9,897 nucleotides of DNA from Caldisericota bacterium (GTDB taxonomy: Bacteria; Caldisericota; JANLFM01): positions 1 through 9,897 of the forward strand of contig JANLFM010000036.1 of the NCBI GenBank assembly GCA_024655865.1, read 5' to 3'. The notes under the pieces are model-generated. The model did not search any database and was not told the DNA's origin. It worked only from the letters and a program-made list of their open reading frames with translations. The first letter of the stretch is position 1. Each line of letters starts with the position of its first letter. Shown one piece after another: positions 3,499 to 9,833 of the stretch. Both the position numbers and the translations under genes were made by a program.

Positions 3499-3969
3499 TT
3501 ATTCATGTCCCTTTCCTGCCATCATTTCTAAGGCGTGAGGTAGAATTTTAAACAAAGCCTCCATGCCATCTTTTACTGCATTCAAGCTTCCTGGTAGGTT
3601 AACAATTAAGGTGCTTCCTTTGAGTCCGGCCTCCGCTCTGGAGAGAGACGCACGGGAAGTTTTTTTCAACCCTTCCCACCTAATGAATTCGCTAATCCCA
3701 GAGGCCCTTTTTTCCAGAATTTCTAAAGTTGCTTCTGGAGTAACATCCCTTGGAGATAAACCAGTGCCTCCTGTAGTAAGGATTAAATCCACACGGTTAA
3801 CCCACTCTTTAAGCTTATCCTCGATCAGTTTTTTCTCATCCGGGAGAATCTCTTTAAAGGGGACTTCCCAACCATTTTCCAACAAAACCCTCTTTATGTA
3901 TTCTCCGCTTTCGTCAATCCGTGTTCCCTTAAAGCAGCTATCGCTAACTGTCAGTACTGCGGCTTTCAT
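3499..3969 (-). CDS. MogA/MoaB-family molybdopterin adenylyltransferase
   Basis: The 156-residue protein belongs to the MoCF-biosynthesis family shared by MogA, MoaB and the MoeA core. Such enzymes transfer AMP from ATP to molybdopterin, activating it for metal insertion by MoeA. It shows the N-terminal VSDS (8-11), TTGGTG (65-70), RDVTPE (74-79) and the LPGS loop. D44 (LPDE) and D75 (RDVTP) align by eye with MogA's conserved aspartates. It is shorter than E. coli MogA (195 aa) and close to MoaB length. The names MogA and MoaB are used inconsistently in anaerobes, so I give no symbol. Its ATG overlaps the stop of the MOSC gene (ATGA). It is last in the tup-moe-moa operon. Confidence 0.93.
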   Translation of the reverse strand: MKAAVLTVSDSCFKGTRIDESGEYIKRVLLENGWEVPFKEILPDEKKLIEDKLKEWVNRVDLILTTGGTGLSPRDVTPEATLEILEKRASGISEFIRWEGLKKTSRASLSRAEAGLKGSTLIVNLPGSLNAVKDGMEALFKILPHALEMMAGKGHE

Positions 3970-4403
3970 TTTTCTTGGACCTCGATTTTGTCCCCTACTT
4001 GGATTTCTCCGCCTTCCAGTACTTTGGCGAAAATTCCTTCCCTAGGCATAATGCAATCTCCCACAAGTTTTCTGATTTCGCAGCCTAAGTGGCACTCTTT
4101 TCCTTTCTGGGTTATTTCCAGAAGGACGTTCCCTATTTTGATTTTTGTCCCTACACTTAAAGCCAAAAGATCGATCCCTGAGGTAGTAATATTTTCTGCA
4201 AAATCGCCCGGAGAAAGGACAAGACCTAAAGAACGCATTTTCTCAATACTTTCTTGAGCTAAGAGACTTACTTGTCGATGCCAGTTTCCAGCGTGAGCAT
4301 CTCCCTCTAAACCAAAATTTTTTAAGATCTTGGCTTTGCCGATGTTGCTTTTTTTGGTACCTTTCTTTTCAGAAACATTTACTGCTACAACCTTTCCAGC
4401 CAT
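3966..4403 (-). CDS. Small MOSC-domain protein, cofactor-associated
   Basis: The protein has 145 residues and is essentially one MOSC domain, the fold of the C-terminal domain of eukaryotic Moco sulfurase and of YiiM-type proteins. Conserved elements are GLEGDAHAG (31-39), GDFAENI (66-72), the cysteine-containing KECHLGC (102-108), GDCIMPREGIFAKV (115-128) and GG-IQVGD (131-138). Cysteines 104, 108 and 117 are candidate sulfur or metal ligands. The ATG at 4403 is preferred over an in-frame start at 4451, because AAGGAG lies 6 bases before it and the longer start would run deep into moaC. It sits 1 base after moaC and overlaps mog (ATGA). Small MOSC proteins commonly sit beside or fuse to MoaC or MogA in anaerobes, but their activity is not settled; a role in cofactor sulfuration or carriage is inference. 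Confidence 0.9.
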   Translation of the reverse strand: MAGKVVAVNVSEKKGTKKSNIGKAKILKNFGLEGDAHAGNWHRQVSLLAQESIEKMRSLGLVLSPGDFAENITTSGIDLLALSVGTKIKIGNVLLEITQKGKECHLGCEIRKLVGDCIMPREGIFAKVLEGGEIQVGDKIEVQEK

Positions 4404-4404
4404 T

Positions 4405-4878
4405 TTACTCTCCTTGGAAAATTCCACTTTTACCTCCGCTTTTAAAAACAAGGCGCAAATCAGATATTCGGATTCTCTTTTCTTGAGCCTTGCACATGTC
4501 GTAAACGGTTAAAGCGGCTACGCTACAAGCTACTAACGCTTCCATTTCCACTCCGGTAACAGACATTGTACGCACATAGCTTTCAATTTCTACGCAGGTC
4601 CTCTCTTCATCTAGGTCGAGTTTCACCTCTATGAAACTAAGCGGAATGGGATGACAAAGCGGGATTAGTTCCCATGTCCTTTTAGCTGCCTGGATTCCGG
4701 CGATCTGAGCAACGGTAAGAACATCACCTTTTTTCATCTGGCCCTCTTTTATGGAGTTAAAGGTAGACGGAGAGAGAAAAACAGAGGCCCTGGCTTTGGC
4801 TTCTCTAAGTGTGCTTTCTTTAGAGCTCACATCCACCATTTTAGCCTTTCCGCTTGAATCTAAATGGCTCAAATTCAT
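4405..4878 (-). CDS. moaC: MoaC, cyclic pyranopterin monophosphate synthase
   Basis: MoaC converts 3',8-cyclo-7,8-dihydro-GTP, the MoaA product, to cyclic pyranopterin monophosphate in the cytoplasm. The 157 residues match the family length and E. coli MoaC almost throughout: MVDVSSKE (14-21), KKGDV (49-53), IAGIQAAKRTWELIPLCHP (59-77), TGVEMEALVA (108-117), YDMCKA (126-131) and the C-terminal KSGGKSG. The catalytic-region residues K50, D127 and K130 are present. ATG at 4878 is chosen over an upstream in-frame TTG (4884), because AGGAGG lies 6 bases before it. It starts 2 bases after the moaA stop. Confidence 0.97.
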   Translation of the reverse strand: MNLSHLDSSGKAKMVDVSSKESTLREAKARASVFLSPSTFNSIKEGQMKKGDVLTVAQIAGIQAAKRTWELIPLCHPIPLSFIEVKLDLDEERTCVEIESYVRTMSVTGVEMEALVACSVAALTVYDMCKAQEKRIRISDLRLVFKSGGKSGIFQGE

Positions 4879-4880
4879 CT

Positions 4881-5843
4881 TCAACCTCCTATCTGTGCCA
4901 TAAACCTCTGGGTCGAAAAGGAAAGGTCCTTTTCTTTAGGTTTTAAGCTTAAAGCCTCCAGAATTTTCAAACGAAGAGCAGAAGAGTCTAAATACGGTCT
5001 CAGTGCAGATTTCAGGTTTACCCCCTGGTGAGAAAAAAGACAGGGAAGAATTTCGCCGTCTGAGGTTAACCTCAGACGGTTGCATTTGGGGCAGAAATGG
5101 TCGCTGAAGGCTGCAATCAGGGAAAAACTTCCTTTGGCATTTGGTAATTGAAAAGATTTTTGGGCTGGCCCGTTTCCAGGTGTAGAGCTCGTTTCTTTGA
5201 ATTCGGTGAGGGAAGAGATTTTCTCAAGGAACTCATGGGCAGACAAGAACGAATCTTTTCCTAATAATCTCCCCAAGGGCATGTACTCAATAAAACGTAC
5301 TTCTACAGGGAACTCGGTTATAAGTTTGAGAAAAGGGATAGGATCTTCATTCCACCCTTTAAGAAGTACTGTGTTAATTTTGATAGGATGAAATCCCACC
5401 TCCATCGCTTTTTGCAAACCCTCTAAAGCTTTGTTGATATCTCCTCTGCGCGTTATCAGCTTATAATTTATGGGATCCAGTGAGGGAAGACCAATATTGA
5501 TTCTTCTAATACCGGCCAATTTCAGGGGTTCCGCTAAATCTTTAAGCATAGTACCATTCGTGGTTATGGTGACTTCTTCAAGCTGTGGAATGTCTCTGAG
5601 ACATTGAACTAAATCCAGTATTCCTTTTCGAAGGAGCGGCTCTCCTCCAGTCAGTCTGACCTTTTTGAGGCCCATAAGGGCCATTTCTCTTACTATTGCG
5701 CAGATTTCCTCGATCCGCAGGATCTCTTCGTGAGGTAAAAGAGGCACCCCCTCGTCTGGCATGCAAAAAATACAACGCAGATTGCACCTATCCGTTAGGG
5801 ATATTCTCAGATAATCTATAGTGCGATCGAATTTGTCTTTCAT
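4881..5843 (-). CDS. moaA: MoaA, GTP 3',8-cyclase (radical SAM)
   Basis: MoaA carries out the first step of pterin-cofactor synthesis, radical rearrangement of GTP to 3',8-cyclo-7,8-dihydro-GTP. The 320 residues contain the radical-SAM cluster motif C20-x3-C24-x2-C27, the GGEP SAM-binding motif (66-69), and the substrate-side [4Fe-4S] ligands C251-x2-C254-x13-C268. The double glycine at the extreme C-terminus (QIGG, 317-320), needed for MoaA activity, is intact. All catalytic features are present, so the enzyme should be functional. The ATG at 5843 shares its A with the moeA stop (TGATG) and has GGAGG 7 bases upstream; an in-frame TTG just before it is less likely. Confidence 0.97.
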   Translation of the reverse strand: MKDKFDRTIDYLRISLTDRCNLRCIFCMPDEGVPLLPHEEILRIEEICAIVREMALMGLKKVRLTGGEPLLRKGILDLVQCLRDIPQLEEVTITTNGTMLKDLAEPLKLAGIRRINIGLPSLDPINYKLITRRGDINKALEGLQKAMEVGFHPIKINTVLLKGWNEDPIPFLKLITEFPVEVRFIEYMPLGRLLGKDSFLSAHEFLEKISSLTEFKETSSTPGNGPAQKSFQLPNAKGSFSLIAAFSDHFCPKCNRLRLTSDGEILPCLFSHQGVNLKSALRPYLDSSALRLKILEALSLKPKEKDLSFSTQRFMAQIGG

Positions 5844-7063
5844 CAATGATCCTCCGGTAAATGGATTAAATGGACAAGAACCTCCTCCCCCCTTTTCAGG
5901 AAATCCTGCTCTTCCGGTATCAAAGCTAAAGCGTCAGCAGCTGCCATAGAAGTTAAGATAGCTGATCCTTGAGCGCCTGCAAGGTAAGCGTAAATCTGGT
6001 CTTTCTTTTCTAATCTCACTCTTAAAAACTGGAGCCTTCCCCTGCTTTCTTTGATGTAATCCTCCCCCATTAAGACTTTGAGCTGAGGGCGGAAAAGGTG
6101 GATAAAGCCCATCATTTTTCTTATTGCTGGACGCACGTACTCTTCAAAACAAATTATTGAGGTCGCAGGATTTCCTGGAATACCGAAAACCGGTTTTCCG
6201 TCCCAGGACCAAAAAGCCATAGGATTTCCTGGGCGCTGTCTAACTTTCCAGAAGTGGAGTTTAGCTCCCAGGTCTTCGAGGGCTTCTTTAACAAAATCAT
6301 ATTCCCCTAAAGAGACTCCGCCAGAAGTTATGATCAAATCGCACTTTAGCCCTTCCCTGAGGGCTTTTAGAATGGATTCCTTATCGTCAGGGACCCTTGG
6401 AAAAAGGAAAGGCTTGGCTCCGGCTTTTTTAACTTGAGCTTGGAGAGTATAGGAGTTGGCGTCCCTGATTTTCCCTGGAACTAATTTCTCCGTTATTCCT
6501 AAGAGCTCATCTCCCGTGGTGATCACGGCTACTTTTAAAGGAGGATAGACTGGGACTTCCCCGAGCCCTAAAGTAGCAAGGATACCAATCTCTTCTTCTT
6601 GAATCACCTGTCCCTTTTTCAAGACAAGATTACCTGCTTTGATGTCCTCTCCTGCTCTTCTGATATCCGTTCCCTTTGGAACGGGTTTTAGAACTAAAAC
6701 CGAACCGTTTTCTAAAACGGTAAGCTCCTTCCTCACAACGGTGTCAGCTCCAGCAGGAATTGGAGCTCCGGTCATGATCTTTATCGCCTTTCCTTGAACG
6801 ACTTCAGCTTCCCCATACATTCCGGCTTTTAGATCCTGAATGATTTCTAAGATAGCGGGGTTTTCCTCTGTGGCTTTAGAAATGTCCTCTGCTCTGACAG
6901 CAAAGCCATCCATGGCTGAGTTGTCGAAAGGAGGGACGTCTCCCGGAGAGAAAATATCCTCTCCCAAAACTAGCCCATAAGCCTCCTCGAGTTTGACCCT
7001 CCTCGTTGGAAGAGGATGGCAATTGTTTAGAACAATTTTTAGTGCTTCCTCATAGCTGATCAT
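5843..7063 (-). CDS. moeA: MoeA, molybdopterin molybdenum (or tungsten) transferase
   Basis: MoeA inserts molybdate or tungstate into adenylylated molybdopterin, releasing AMP and mature cofactor. The 406 residues fit MoeA. Motifs in order are PPFDNSAMDGFAV (44-56), TGAPIPAGADTVV (98-110), TTGDEL (182-187), RDANSYTL (200-207), TSGGVSLGEYDFV (246-258), RPGNPM (277-282) and FGIPGNPAT (293-301), followed by the C-terminal domain IV. The ATG at 7063 is chosen because GGAGG lies 5 bases upstream; an in-frame start at 7093 has no comparable site. It overlaps the end of tupC by 14 bases. Tungsten-using organisms often carry two moeA copies; only one is here, next to tungstate transport, so it may be the tungsten-specific version. 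That specificity cannot be read from sequence by eye. Confidence 0.96.
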   Translation of the reverse strand: MISYEEALKIVLNNCHPLPTRRVKLEEAYGLVLGEDIFSPGDVPPFDNSAMDGFAVRAEDISKATEENPAILEIIQDLKAGMYGEAEVVQGKAIKIMTGAPIPAGADTVVRKELTVLENGSVLVLKPVPKGTDIRRAGEDIKAGNLVLKKGQVIQEEEIGILATLGLGEVPVYPPLKVAVITTGDELLGITEKLVPGKIRDANSYTLQAQVKKAGAKPFLFPRVPDDKESILKALREGLKCDLIITSGGVSLGEYDFVKEALEDLGAKLHFWKVRQRPGNPMAFWSWDGKPVFGIPGNPATSIICFEEYVRPAIRKMMGFIHLFRPQLKVLMGEDYIKESRGRLQFLRVRLEKKDQIYAYLAGAQGSAILTSMAAADALALIPEEQDFLKRGEEVLVHLIHLPEDH

Positions 7064-8159
7064 TTGCTCCTCCTTCATCTTCTGAAAAGACATGAACAGC
7101 AGTGGCTTTAAACGTAGCCACTACGAAATCGCCGGGCTTTAAATTTAGATCGAAGACAGAGCGCCTGGTGATTAAAACCTTGAGGGTAAAACCGCAATCT
7201 AAAGTAGCTTTAGTTACCGGCCCAAATGAATCTAACGAGGTTATAGTTCCAGGTAATTGGTTGCGGGCGGAAACTCTTTCCAGGGCTACCCCGTCCTTCT
7301 TTAAAGTAATTTCCTCGGGGCGAATGCAGGCGATTACCTTTTTTCCTGGGGGAAATGGAGCAATAGCTTCTAAGGTTTTATCCCCAGCCTTCAAGCTCAC
7401 AAGGTTATTTTCCTGTGAGCAAACCACAGCAGGAATTAGATTTTCTGTGCCAACAAACTTAGCCACTTTGGCGTTGCTCGGTTTGAAGAAAACCCTTTCC
7501 TTATTTCCCACCTGGAGTATTTTTCCCTGATCTAAGACAGCGATCCTGTCGGAAAAGAAATAGGCTTCTTCCTGATCGTGAGTTACATAAACGCAGGTCA
7601 TGCCAATCTGTTTTAGAATTCTGTATAATTCAGGTTTTAACTTGTCCTTTGTTAGAGGATCGAGGGAAGCTAAGGGTTCGTCTAGCAGGAGCAAGAGAGG
7701 ATGGAAGACCAGGGCTCTGGCCAGAGCCATTCTCTGGGCTTCTCCCCCAGAGATTCTCCGTGCTGAATGATTTTTTAAATGCTCAATTCCTAAAAGCTCC
7801 AGGGCCTCTTCCACTTTCCTTTTTAATTCTTTTCCCTTTACTCCACGAATTCTCAACCCATAGGCCACATTTTCAAAAACAGTGCCTTGGAAAGGTAAAG
7901 GTTCCTGAAAGGTCATGGAGATCAAACGCCGAACAGATAAAGGAGCGGGAAAATGTACCTGTTGCCCTTGCCAGAATATTTCTCCCTGTTGGGGTTTAAT
8001 CAAAAAAGCTAAAAGTTTCAGAATCGTGCTCTTTCCGGACCCGGTAGGACCAAGTATTGTGAGGATTTCTCCGCAATTTATATCTAACGTCTCAATCTCA
8101 AGAATTTTCCTTTTTTCCAGAACAACCTCTATGTTTTTCAGTTGCATTAAGGGATTCAT
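7050..8159 (-). CDS. tupC: TupC, tungstate ABC transporter ATPase with C-terminal TOBE-like domain
   Basis: This is the ATPase subunit of the tungstate importer. In 369 residues it shows Walker A GPTGSGKST (37-45), the Q-loop at Q85 (MTFQEP), signature ISGGEAQR (136-143), Walker B LLLLLDEP (155-162), a D-loop (SLDP) and the H-loop H194 (VTHD). From about residue 228 there is a TOBE-like regulatory region ending in PGTITSLDSFGPVTKATLDCG and LITRRSVFDLNLKPGDFVVATFKATAVHV. Such domains bind oxyanions in ModC-type ATPases and can inhibit transport when internal oxyanion is high; that role is inference. ModC and WtpC are alternatives, but position after tupA and tupB supports TupC. The ATG overlaps the tupB stop (ATGA) with only a weak ribosome site, so translation probably depends on coupling. 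Confidence 0.92.
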   Translation of the reverse strand: MNPLMQLKNIEVVLEKRKILEIETLDINCGEILTILGPTGSGKSTILKLLAFLIKPQQGEIFWQGQQVHFPAPLSVRRLISMTFQEPLPFQGTVFENVAYGLRIRGVKGKELKRKVEEALELLGIEHLKNHSARRISGGEAQRMALARALVFHPLLLLLDEPLASLDPLTKDKLKPELYRILKQIGMTCVYVTHDQEEAYFFSDRIAVLDQGKILQVGNKERVFFKPSNAKVAKFVGTENLIPAVVCSQENNLVSLKAGDKTLEAIAPFPPGKKVIACIRPEEITLKKDGVALERVSARNQLPGTITSLDSFGPVTKATLDCGFTLKVLITRRSVFDLNLKPGDFVVATFKATAVHVFSEDEGGANDQL

Positions 8160-8851
8160 GACAATCTTCTCTGCTGTAAATAAGTAAAGAGCAAATTTAG
8201 AAGGAGGGCGATTAGAAGGAGGATGAGACCTAAAGCGATGGCCAAACTGTACTCACCCTGTCTGGTTTCAAGAACAATGGCCGTGGTTAATACCCTTGTT
8301 TGCCCTTTGATATTTCCCCCTACCATCATTACCGCTCCCACTTCAGAGATAATGGAGCCAAATCCGGCAGCTAAGGCAGAGAGGATGATTAGCTGTCCCT
8401 CTTTGAGCAATTTAAGAAGATATTGAAATCCGCTAGCTCCTAGTGCCAGGATCTGATATTTCAATTTTTCCTCTATGCTCTGGATTCCCGCCATAGTTAC
8501 CCCCACCACTAAGGGCAGAGCGATGATAATCTGGGCAATGATCATCGCCCAAGGTGTGTAGAGCAAATTGAAGCTTCCCAAAGGTCCTGAACGCGCCAGT
8601 AAAAGGAAAACGAATAAGCCCACGACGACAGGAGGGAATCCCATACCAGTATTGACCAAAGTAACAATCAGGTTCCTTCCTGGAAAACGATGCAACCCCA
8701 AGAACACTCCAAAAGGGATTCCTAAAATTACAGCAATCAAGATAGCTAAACCTGAAACCTCTAAGGAAAGAAACAAGATCTGTATAAGTTCAGGATCTAA
8801 ACTTAAAATCAGGCGAAAAGCGGCTTTTATTCCTTCCCAAATGATATCGAT
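8156..8851 (-). CDS. tupB: TupB, tungstate ABC transporter permease (apparent ATC start)
   Basis: This is the membrane subunit of the tungstate importer, with about five membrane segments. The ATPase-contact (EAA-like) loop is ALGASGFQYLLKLLKEGQLIILSALAAGFGSIISEVGAVMMVGGNI. The first possible TTG start (8776) would give only 206 residues and cut off IWEGIKAAFRLILSLDPELIQI, which looks like the normal N-terminus of TupB-type permeases. The frame stays open up to the tupA stop, but holds no ATG, GTG or TTG upstream. A strong ribosome-binding site (GGAGG, 8859-8863) lies 7 bases before an ATC codon at 8851, giving a 231-residue product of normal family length. I therefore annotate an ATC start. 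A base error converting ATG to ATC would look the same. The 3' end overlaps tupC (ATGA). Confidence 0.88.
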   Translation of the reverse strand: MDIIWEGIKAAFRLILSLDPELIQILFLSLEVSGLAILIAVILGIPFGVFLGLHRFPGRNLIVTLVNTGMGFPPVVVGLFVFLLLARSGPLGSFNLLYTPWAMIIAQIIIALPLVVGVTMAGIQSIEEKLKYQILALGASGFQYLLKLLKEGQLIILSALAAGFGSIISEVGAVMMVGGNIKGQTRVLTTAIVLETRQGEYSLAIALGLILLLIALLLNLLFTYLQQRRLS

Positions 8852-8858
8852 GCTTATT

Positions 8859-8863
8859 CCTCC
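8859..8863 (-). promoter_or_regulatory. tupB ribosome-binding site
   Basis: GGAGG in the short tupA-tupB gap, within AAGGAGG. It is 7 bases from the ATC codon at 8851, which is ideal spacing, but about 80 bases from the first TTG at 8776. It is the main evidence that translation starts at a non-standard codon. Confidence 0.8.
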
Positions 8864-8866
8864 TTC

Positions 8867-9682
8867 TTAAGGGGTGAATAAGTGAAATAATGCTTCTCCA
8901 TACTTATCTTTGCCAAAATTGCCAATAAGCTCTAAGGTTTGAGGAGAGGTTATCCAGGAGTAAAAAAGCTGAGCCTCCTTGGAATGGACCTTGGGAAACT
9001 TTTGTTCGTTTATTAAGATCACGGAATAAATGTTGAGCAGATCTCTGTTTCCTTGAGAAATTGGTATAAGGGAAAGAGTGTTCTTCTGAGCTAGCCAGGT
9101 GCTCCGGTCAGTAAGTGTGTACGCGCCCTTTTCTGAAGAAATGCGTAAGGTTTCCCCCATGCCTTGCCCGGAGACAAGATAAGTCATTGCAGCTTGAGTA
9201 GGGGTAATGGAAATTTTCCCCCAAAGAGCCAATTCTTTAAGGTGTGTCCCAGATTGATCCCCCCTGGAGACAAAGATCGCACCTTTAGTATGGGCTATTT
9301 TTGTCAAGGCTTGGTACACGTCATACCCCTTAACTTGGGCTGGATCTGCAGGCGGCCCTACCAAAAGAAAATCATTGTAGCAGATTTCCTGTCTTTTGGA
9401 TCCATACCCAGCATTCATGAGCTCCATCTCTTTAGGTTTGTTGTGGACCAAAAGCACATCCGCATTGCCCCTTTGACCCATGGCGATGGCCTCACCAGTT
9501 CCCACGGCTACTACTTGGACTTTGATGTCATACTGGCTTTCGAATTTGGGGATCAAAAAATCCAGAAGGCCAGAATCTTGGACCGAGGTGGTGGTGGCCA
9601 GGATGAGTGTTTTTTGGCTCTGGCAAGAGAAGAGAGAGAAAATCAAGATTGAAATGAAAAACAGACTTAGAGCTTTCCTCAT
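8867..9682 (-). CDS. tupA: TupA, tungstate-binding lipoprotein
   Basis: This is the extracytoplasmic binding protein of the tungstate importer, 271 residues. A signal peptide (MRK, then a hydrophobic stretch) ends in the lipobox LFSC with the lipidated cysteine at C20, so the protein is probably membrane-anchored. The mature part has the TupA ligand motifs TTTSVQDSG (30-38) and VSRGDQSGTH (138-147), plus VGTGEAIAMGQRGNADVLLVH (60-80). These mark TupA rather than ModA, which lacks the TTTS and SRGD pair. The ATG at 9682 is chosen: a GTG directly before it (9685) and a TTG at 9700 are in frame, but the latter lies inside the riboswitch tail, and the signal peptide begins naturally at MRKAL. Its ribosome-binding site is part of the riboswitch closing stem. 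Confidence 0.95.
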   Translation of the reverse strand: MRKALSLFFISILIFSLFSCQSQKTLILATTTSVQDSGLLDFLIPKFESQYDIKVQVVAVGTGEAIAMGQRGNADVLLVHNKPKEMELMNAGYGSKRQEICYNDFLLVGPPADPAQVKGYDVYQALTKIAHTKGAIFVSRGDQSGTHLKELALWGKISITPTQAAMTYLVSGQGMGETLRISSEKGAYTLTDRSTWLAQKNTLSLIPISQGNRDLLNIYSVILINEQKFPKVHSKEAQLFYSWITSPQTLELIGNFGKDKYGEALFHLFTP

Positions 9683-9689
9683 CACAGTT

Positions 9690-9693
9690 CTCC
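9690..9693 (-). promoter_or_regulatory. tupA ribosome-binding site within riboswitch P1
   Basis: GGAG, within GGAAAGGAG, lies 7 bases before the tupA ATG at 9682. The same four bases are the 3' strand of riboswitch helix P1, so forming P1 would hide the site. This suggests ligand-dependent repression of translation, as described for E. coli moaA. Confidence 0.8.
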
Positions 9694-9791
9694 TTTCCAA
9701 ATTCCGGGAGGCGGAAAAATTACTTTTTCCACCCTCAGCCTGTTTTCAGGCATCGCCCGTAAGTTCCCGGGGGGAGCCTCACGGGTCGGAG
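9690..9791 (-). ncRNA. Moco/Tuco-type riboswitch in the tupA leader
   Basis: The leader resembles the molybdenum-cofactor riboswitch (Moco RNA motif) of E. coli moaA. Read on the minus strand, the shared parts in order are: P1, CTCC (9791-9788) with GGAG (9693-9690); a P2-like helix, CCGGGA (9770-9765) with TCCCGG (9709-9704); a hairpin GCCTG-AAAA-CAGGC (9751-9738); a 7-bp hairpin GGAAAAA/TTTTTCC with a GUAA tetraloop (9730-9713); and the conserved tail GCCTCCCG then TTTGGAAAGG (9712-9691), which nearly matches the E. coli moaA leader. E. coli closes P1 with CACC/GGTG, so the pairing is kept while bases change. It precedes tungstate and pterin-cofactor genes, the expected context. Whether it senses Moco or the tungsten form (Tuco) cannot be told by eye. 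Confidence 0.88.
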
Positions 9792-9797
9792 TCATTT

Positions 9798-9820
9798 TTG
9801 GATAGGATATCAAAGTCCAA
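9798..9820. repeat. Inverted repeat over the promoter -10 region
   Basis: TTGGA-N13-TCCAA forms a 23-bp interrupted palindrome centred on GATATC and covering the candidate -10 of the tup operon. A repressor site is possible. The arms are only 5 bp, so chance is a real alternative. Confidence 0.25.
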
Positions 9821-9833
9821 GGGGTTTTTTCAA
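9804..9833 (-). promoter_or_regulatory. Candidate sigma-70 promoter for the tup-moe-moa operon
   Basis: TTGAAA (9833-9828, five of six matches to -35) and TATCCT (9809-9804, four of six to -10) are separated by 18 bases. Transcription would start near 9797, a few bases before the riboswitch P1 strand at 9791, which is the expected arrangement. The -10 is not strong, so the call rests partly on position. Confidence 0.45.

Follow-up and report, generated by a model that had tools for sequence, protein, structure and literature searches.

Genomic Context of the Leader RNA

The stretch of DNA analyzed here (the window) is the entire 9897-bp contig C29 of a 1.82-Mb MAG (96% complete, 2.9% contamination). 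Its minus strand carries a Moco RNA motif followed by genes for oxyanion uptake and pterin cofactor synthesis. The uptake genes encode a tupA-like oxyanion-binding protein (8867–9682, with the ATG at 9682–9680; NF041772, E 3.1e-57), a tupB-like permease (8156–8866, start codon uncertain) and a tupC/wtpC-like ATPase (7050–8159), the latter two named from protein-family matches. They are followed by moeA (5843–7093, likewise a protein-family match), moaA (4881–5846; TIGR02666), moaC (4405–4884; TIGR00581), a gene for a MOSC-domain protein (3966–4403) that matches the MOSC half of NF011069, and one for a mog/moaB-type molybdopterin adenylyltransferase-like protein (3499–3969; TIGR00177); the TIGR matches all score above their cut-offs. 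From tupABC to mog, the genes are tightly packed or overlapping on one strand and end at 3499, beyond which lie convergent genes for a branched-chain-amino-acid-type (liv-like) ABC transporter, named from sequence only. A previous sequence-only reading of the window had placed tupABC, moeA, moaA, moaC, the MOSC gene and mog on a single transcript under one aptamer, which is supported by the protein families; the Shine–Dalgarno sequence lies in helix P1 of the aptamer.

The transporter resembles the TupABC systems of E. acidaminophilum, D. alaskensis and C. jejuni. Among solved structures, the best match of the window TupA is 5my5, which we take to be TupA of D. alaskensis. The oxyanion-site residues are kept as well: T30–S33 (TTTS), H80, R140, T146, and D192 are invariant in alignment A1 and correspond to the ligand-binding TTTS, His, Arg, Thr, and Asp of D. 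alaskensis TupA (PMC5517513). The latter protein binds tungstate with a KD of 6.3 pM and molybdate with a KD of 6.1 nM (PMC4139814, PMC5517513). However, the window proteins score below the NCBIfam equivalog cut-offs, both for TupA (193.9 vs. 400 bits for NF041772) and for TupB (182.8 vs. 320), and the name tungstate is therefore given by homology only.

The window is collinear almost end to end with contig C62 of the same MAG (L003 1438–11246) at 73% identity, and with the same-genus genome G001 at 69% identity. Its G+C content is 44%, compared to 48–53% in the other contigs sampled. The contig probably stems from a sister species that was co-binned into the MAG, and statements on the genome of the window therefore rest on relatives. 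At NCBI, the corresponding contig of G001 is labeled Caldisericota and that of G004 Coprothermobacterota. C62 additionally has a codirectional MoeB/ThiF-like gene (L003 11299–12144, minus strand) whose end lies about 38 nt ahead of the riboswitch; the window differs at this position.

Structure of the Riboswitch

In the Rfam search, the minus strand of the window matched RF01055 at 9803–9674 with 51.0 bits (E 4.4e-10), the gathering score being 36. The match is full length (model positions 1–135 of 135), and RF01055 is the sole Rfam family with a match at E ≤ 1 in the window. This confirms the Moco-type riboswitch that the sequence-only reading had proposed at 9690–9791, a range identical to the span from P1 to P1; the whole match extends 12–16 nt farther on either side. 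Helices P1, P2, P4, and P5 and the core AGGG...CCUCCC...GGAAAGG are all present, and the RNA lies upstream of Mo/W cofactor and transport genes, as do members of this family.

The 5′ strand of P1, CUCC (9788–9791), pairs with GGAG, giving four strong pairs with mismatches farther out. P2 (CCCGUGAG/CUUACGGG, 9756–9785) has 8 bp and an apical UCCC/GGGA, and spans 30 nt. It is followed by the P3 hairpin GCCUG-AAAA-CAGGC (9738–9751), which emerges from the RF01055 alignment, the fold, and the comparison of relatives alike. P4 (9709–9734) consists of 7 bp, GGAAAAA/UUUUUCC, which the fold extends to as many as 11 pairs, and is capped by a GUAA tetraloop at 9723–9720. P5 (CC/GG) with its loop occupies 9697–9708 and is succeeded by the Shine–Dalgarno sequence AAAGGAG (9690–9696), of which GGAG (9693–9690) is the 3′ strand of P1. 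The elements noticed earlier by eye, i.e., P1, a P2-like helix, two hairpins, one of them a GUAA-capped 7-bp stem, thus all recur in the RF01055 alignment and fold, and the conserved tail CCUCCCGGAAUUUGGAAAGGAG agrees with the Rfam consensus tail. The window RNA deviates from the common form of RF01055, which has a GAAA tetraloop on P4 and an 11-nt receptor for it in P2, in that its loop is GUAA and its P2 lacks the receptor. Receptor-less forms with loops other than GAAA are nevertheless accepted members of the family, the module being a variant rather than a defining feature (PMC2408646).

Directly ahead of the aptamer lies a sigma-70-like promoter (9804–9833), composed of TTGAAA (9833–9828), an 18-nt spacer and a TG-extended TATCCT (9809–9804). 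The site has 9 of 12 matches, one such site being found against 0.2 expected in shuffles. The spacing in C62 and G001 is similar, as judged by eye.

The predicted fold of the window RNA reaches −47.7 kcal/mol; its z score against dinucleotide shuffles is −3.58, and one of 200 shuffles does as well. When 29 relatives are aligned, 24 pairs are predicted, and 18 of these show compensatory changes. The outer pair of P5 provides a clean example, as CCUCCC with GGAAAGG is replaced by CCUGCC with GCAAAGG, a C-G/G-C swap. The match score, the fold compared to shuffles and the compensatory pairs indicate that the motif is real, and the window RNA is a genuine Moco-type riboswitch that belongs to an already known class. 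The shortness of P1 and its mismatched outer pairs could point to a motif that arose by chance or has decayed and lost its regulatory function, but this is extremely improbable in view of the score of 51 bits, the conservation of the RNA before tupA in related genomes and the rebuilding of P3 from differing sequences. G001 has a third, weak match to RF01055 (C46, 25.8 bits, positions 74–112), which was put down to a chance GC-rich hairpin.

P3 and the Tetraloop in Related Moco RNAs

Among 72 RF01055 matches, the gap between P2 and P4 is bimodal: it measures either 5–6 nt, without P3, or 21–37 nt, with P3, and no intermediate lengths occur. With an insert of 22 nt that carries P3, the window RNA differs from the P3-lacking "Tuco" variants, with which it shares the core and the tie to tungstate-type metabolism; the P3-lacking relatives found here all have 5–6 nt. 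When the inserts that form P3 were compared in 14 distinct RNAs, several of which are related, nearly all folded better than shuffles (combined p 2.4e-14), with different pairs at each position.

Eight distinct P3-containing RNAs lie before tupA, namely those of the window, C62, G001, G003, and G004, and those of the Actinomycetota MAGs L089, L098, and L101. In the window's family, the RNA and tupAB are kept together in the four genomes with a P3-containing RNA, with the cofactor genes behind them in C62, G001 and, as far as partly seen, G003. In one class of Actinomycetota, P3 inserts are present in all eight Moco RNAs; the gene behind the RNA is tupA, tupB, moeA, or one resembling formate dehydrogenase, a name given from the sequence. 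A wider RF01055 search around these genomes returned only the three genomes of that class. In L101, two different P3-containing Moco RNAs (3645–3783 and 7282–7413) occur in one 8.7-kb locus, before tupA and tupB, respectively. P3-lacking RNAs are found before tupA as well. Within the window's phylum, none of 19 RNAs linked to AOR genes has P3 (11 directly before AOR, 8 before a ferredoxin-AOR pair), where AOR denotes genes that cluster by BLAST with a member of PF01314.

The loop of P4 varies with the length of P2. Among 67 distinct RNAs, those with a long P2 have a GAAA or AAAA loop in 46 of 46 cases, while a short P2 goes with a GCAA, GUAA, GCGA, or GUGA loop in 20 of 21 (Fisher p 3.6e-16, kinship among the RNAs being ignored). 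This pattern extends the observation, made in 2008 on four RNAs, that Moco RNAs with a GCAA loop are receptor-less (PMC2408646). The window RNA resembles these in having a GNRA loop other than GAAA and no 11-nt receptor, but its loop is GUAA. Short-P2 RNAs exist both with P3, at tup genes, and without P3, at AOR genes, so P3 and the loop/receptor module vary in part independently.

Predicted Mechanism of Control

In the window, part of the Shine–Dalgarno sequence of tupA (9696–9690) belongs to the 3′ strand of P1, and 7 nt separate this sequence from the ATG at 9682. The RBS of E. coli moaA likewise lies within P1; repression has been proposed to act through it, and expression drops when cofactor is made (PMC2408646). 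Both RNAs belong to RF01055, have P1–P5 including P3 and stand ahead of cofactor-synthesis genes, but the window RNA controls tupABC first. Transcription termination was ruled out as a mechanism, as no terminator was found on the minus strand from the aptamer to tupA. E. coli moaA shares the placement of the Shine–Dalgarno sequence in P1, which makes a translational OFF switch the best-fitting mechanism, and the P3-containing RNA most probably acts as such on tupABC-moeA-moaA-moaC-MOSC-mog, judging from its sequence and fold.

In this model, plentiful metal-pterin cofactor would bind the P2–P5 core and stabilize P1, which would sequester the Shine–Dalgarno sequence and shut off translation of the importer. 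Translational coupling, assumed along the whole operon, would extend the shut-off to the overlapping cofactor genes downstream. When cofactor is scarce, the 5′ strand of P1 would pair elsewhere, i.e., its UCCG with CGGA of the P5 loop, opening the Shine–Dalgarno sequence so that uptake and synthesis could resume. Fold predictions for the window RNA yield two near-isoenergetic states of this kind, −47.2 kcal/mol with P1 forced and −47.7 kcal/mol with UCCG:CGGA forced, the latter leaving the Shine–Dalgarno sequence partly open; the slight lean to the alternative fold is within model error and concerns the isolated RNA. By fold energies, P1 is the favored state in C62, G003, and G004. All five members of the window's family carry the CGGA within the P5 loop; at the three other CGGA matches, the overlap is with the P5 strand.

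Metal Use and Ligand Specificity

All five genomes of the window's family encode both AOR-type (PF01314) and xanthine-oxidase-type (PF02738) enzymes; neither gene type was found in the three Actinomycetota genomes. ModA is absent from all eight genomes examined in these two groups, compared to its presence in 11 of 14 control genomes. In G000, the PF13531 proteins comprise two TupA copies and one PstS-like protein, and no others. The same genome has five MoCoBD_1 genes, by which a host using tungsten only was ruled out. One importer may thus serve both metals.

Probing in vitro is limited by the instability of the metal-pterin cofactor. The division of Moco RNAs into P3-containing and P3-lacking ligand classes rests solely on gene neighborhoods. 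P3-including RNAs were found exclusively with MPT or Moco genes, and were assigned to Moco, and P3-lacking RNAs to Tuco; tungsten users were recognized by their tupA/tupB homologs (Regulski et al., 2008; PMC2408646). The sequence-only reading had leaned to a tungsten-cofactor ligand on account of the tungstate genes and had named P3 as the discriminator. As P3 is present, this lean fails by that very feature, and a Tuco ligand deduced from gene content alone was dropped, TupA being able to bind molybdate and Mo-type enzymes being encoded. The P3-lacking Tuco subgroup does not accommodate the window RNA. Neither does the Moco subgroup fully, since the RNA has P3 but does not stand with MPT/Moco genes only: it directly precedes tupA, the tungsten marker of Regulski et al. 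(2008) itself, and therefore contradicts the 2008 rule on P3.

Since the importer may serve both metals, gene content cannot decide on the ligand. Our best guess is Moco, with about an even chance, and the lean is due to P3. The xanthine-oxidase-family genes in all five family genomes and the absence of P3 from the AOR-preceding RNAs of the same phylum point the same way, although the TupA-type transporter, the 2008 marker of tungsten metabolism, counts against it. Should P3 not decide the metal, the switch could be specific for Tuco, abundant Tuco repressing tungstate uptake and pterin synthesis. The position of the RNA directly before a TupABC-type importer with the oxyanion residues conserved (PMC5517513), the AOR-family genes throughout the family, the recurrence of P3-containing RNAs before tupA/tupB in the Actinomycetota class and the lack of ModA in the eight genomes are consistent with this. 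We nevertheless consider it rather unlikely, given the 2008 correlation of P3 with Moco (PMC2408646), the lack of P3 in 19 of 19 AOR-linked RNAs of the window's phylum, and the presence of Mo-type enzymes next to a TupA type that can bind molybdate (PMC4139814). Less probable still is repression by Moco or Tuco without discrimination. It would suit one importer for both metals, as suggested by G000, in which TupA is the single recognizable type of Mo/W-binding protein (PstS accounting for the third PF13531 match) and both metalloenzyme families are present, but the P3-containing RNA of E. coli does discriminate against Tuco (PMC2408646).

A broader proposal, which we regard as possible but doubtful, is that P3 does not set metal specificity, that P3-containing RNAs with a short P2 and a GUAA or GCAA loop sense Tuco or both cofactors, and that the 2008 rule would fail for this subgroup in at least two phyla. 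Here, P3 coincides with a tungstate-type importer, and the genomes concerned lack ModA and, in the window's lineage, encode both W- and Mo-type enzymes, which parts two predictors that once agreed. This makes the RNA a useful test case of whether P3 carries metal specificity.

Other Genes Preceded by Moco RNAs

Several other RNAs of the comparison precede genes of a different kind. In a Thermoanaerobaculaceae MAG (L131 2988–3132, minus strand), a P3-containing Moco RNA with a GUGA loop lies before a TonB-dependent-receptor-like gene adjoining tupA; the receptor-like protein is a candidate for the outer-membrane step in Mo/W uptake. P3-lacking RNAs in L050 and L051 (3001–3121 in both) precede a gene whose product, a small membrane protein, is similar to the S component of ECF transporters, a possible new importer of Mo/W or pterin. 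In family f3 (L027, L030, L041–L043, and L045–L048), P3-lacking RNAs stand before a BtuF/MolA-like binding-protein gene, and this system is likely another type of Mo/W importer. Lastly, P3-lacking RNAs are found upstream of aldehyde dehydrogenase genes in L025, L026, L055, and L071; these enzymes possibly act as a metal-free substitute for AOR when cofactor is in short supply.
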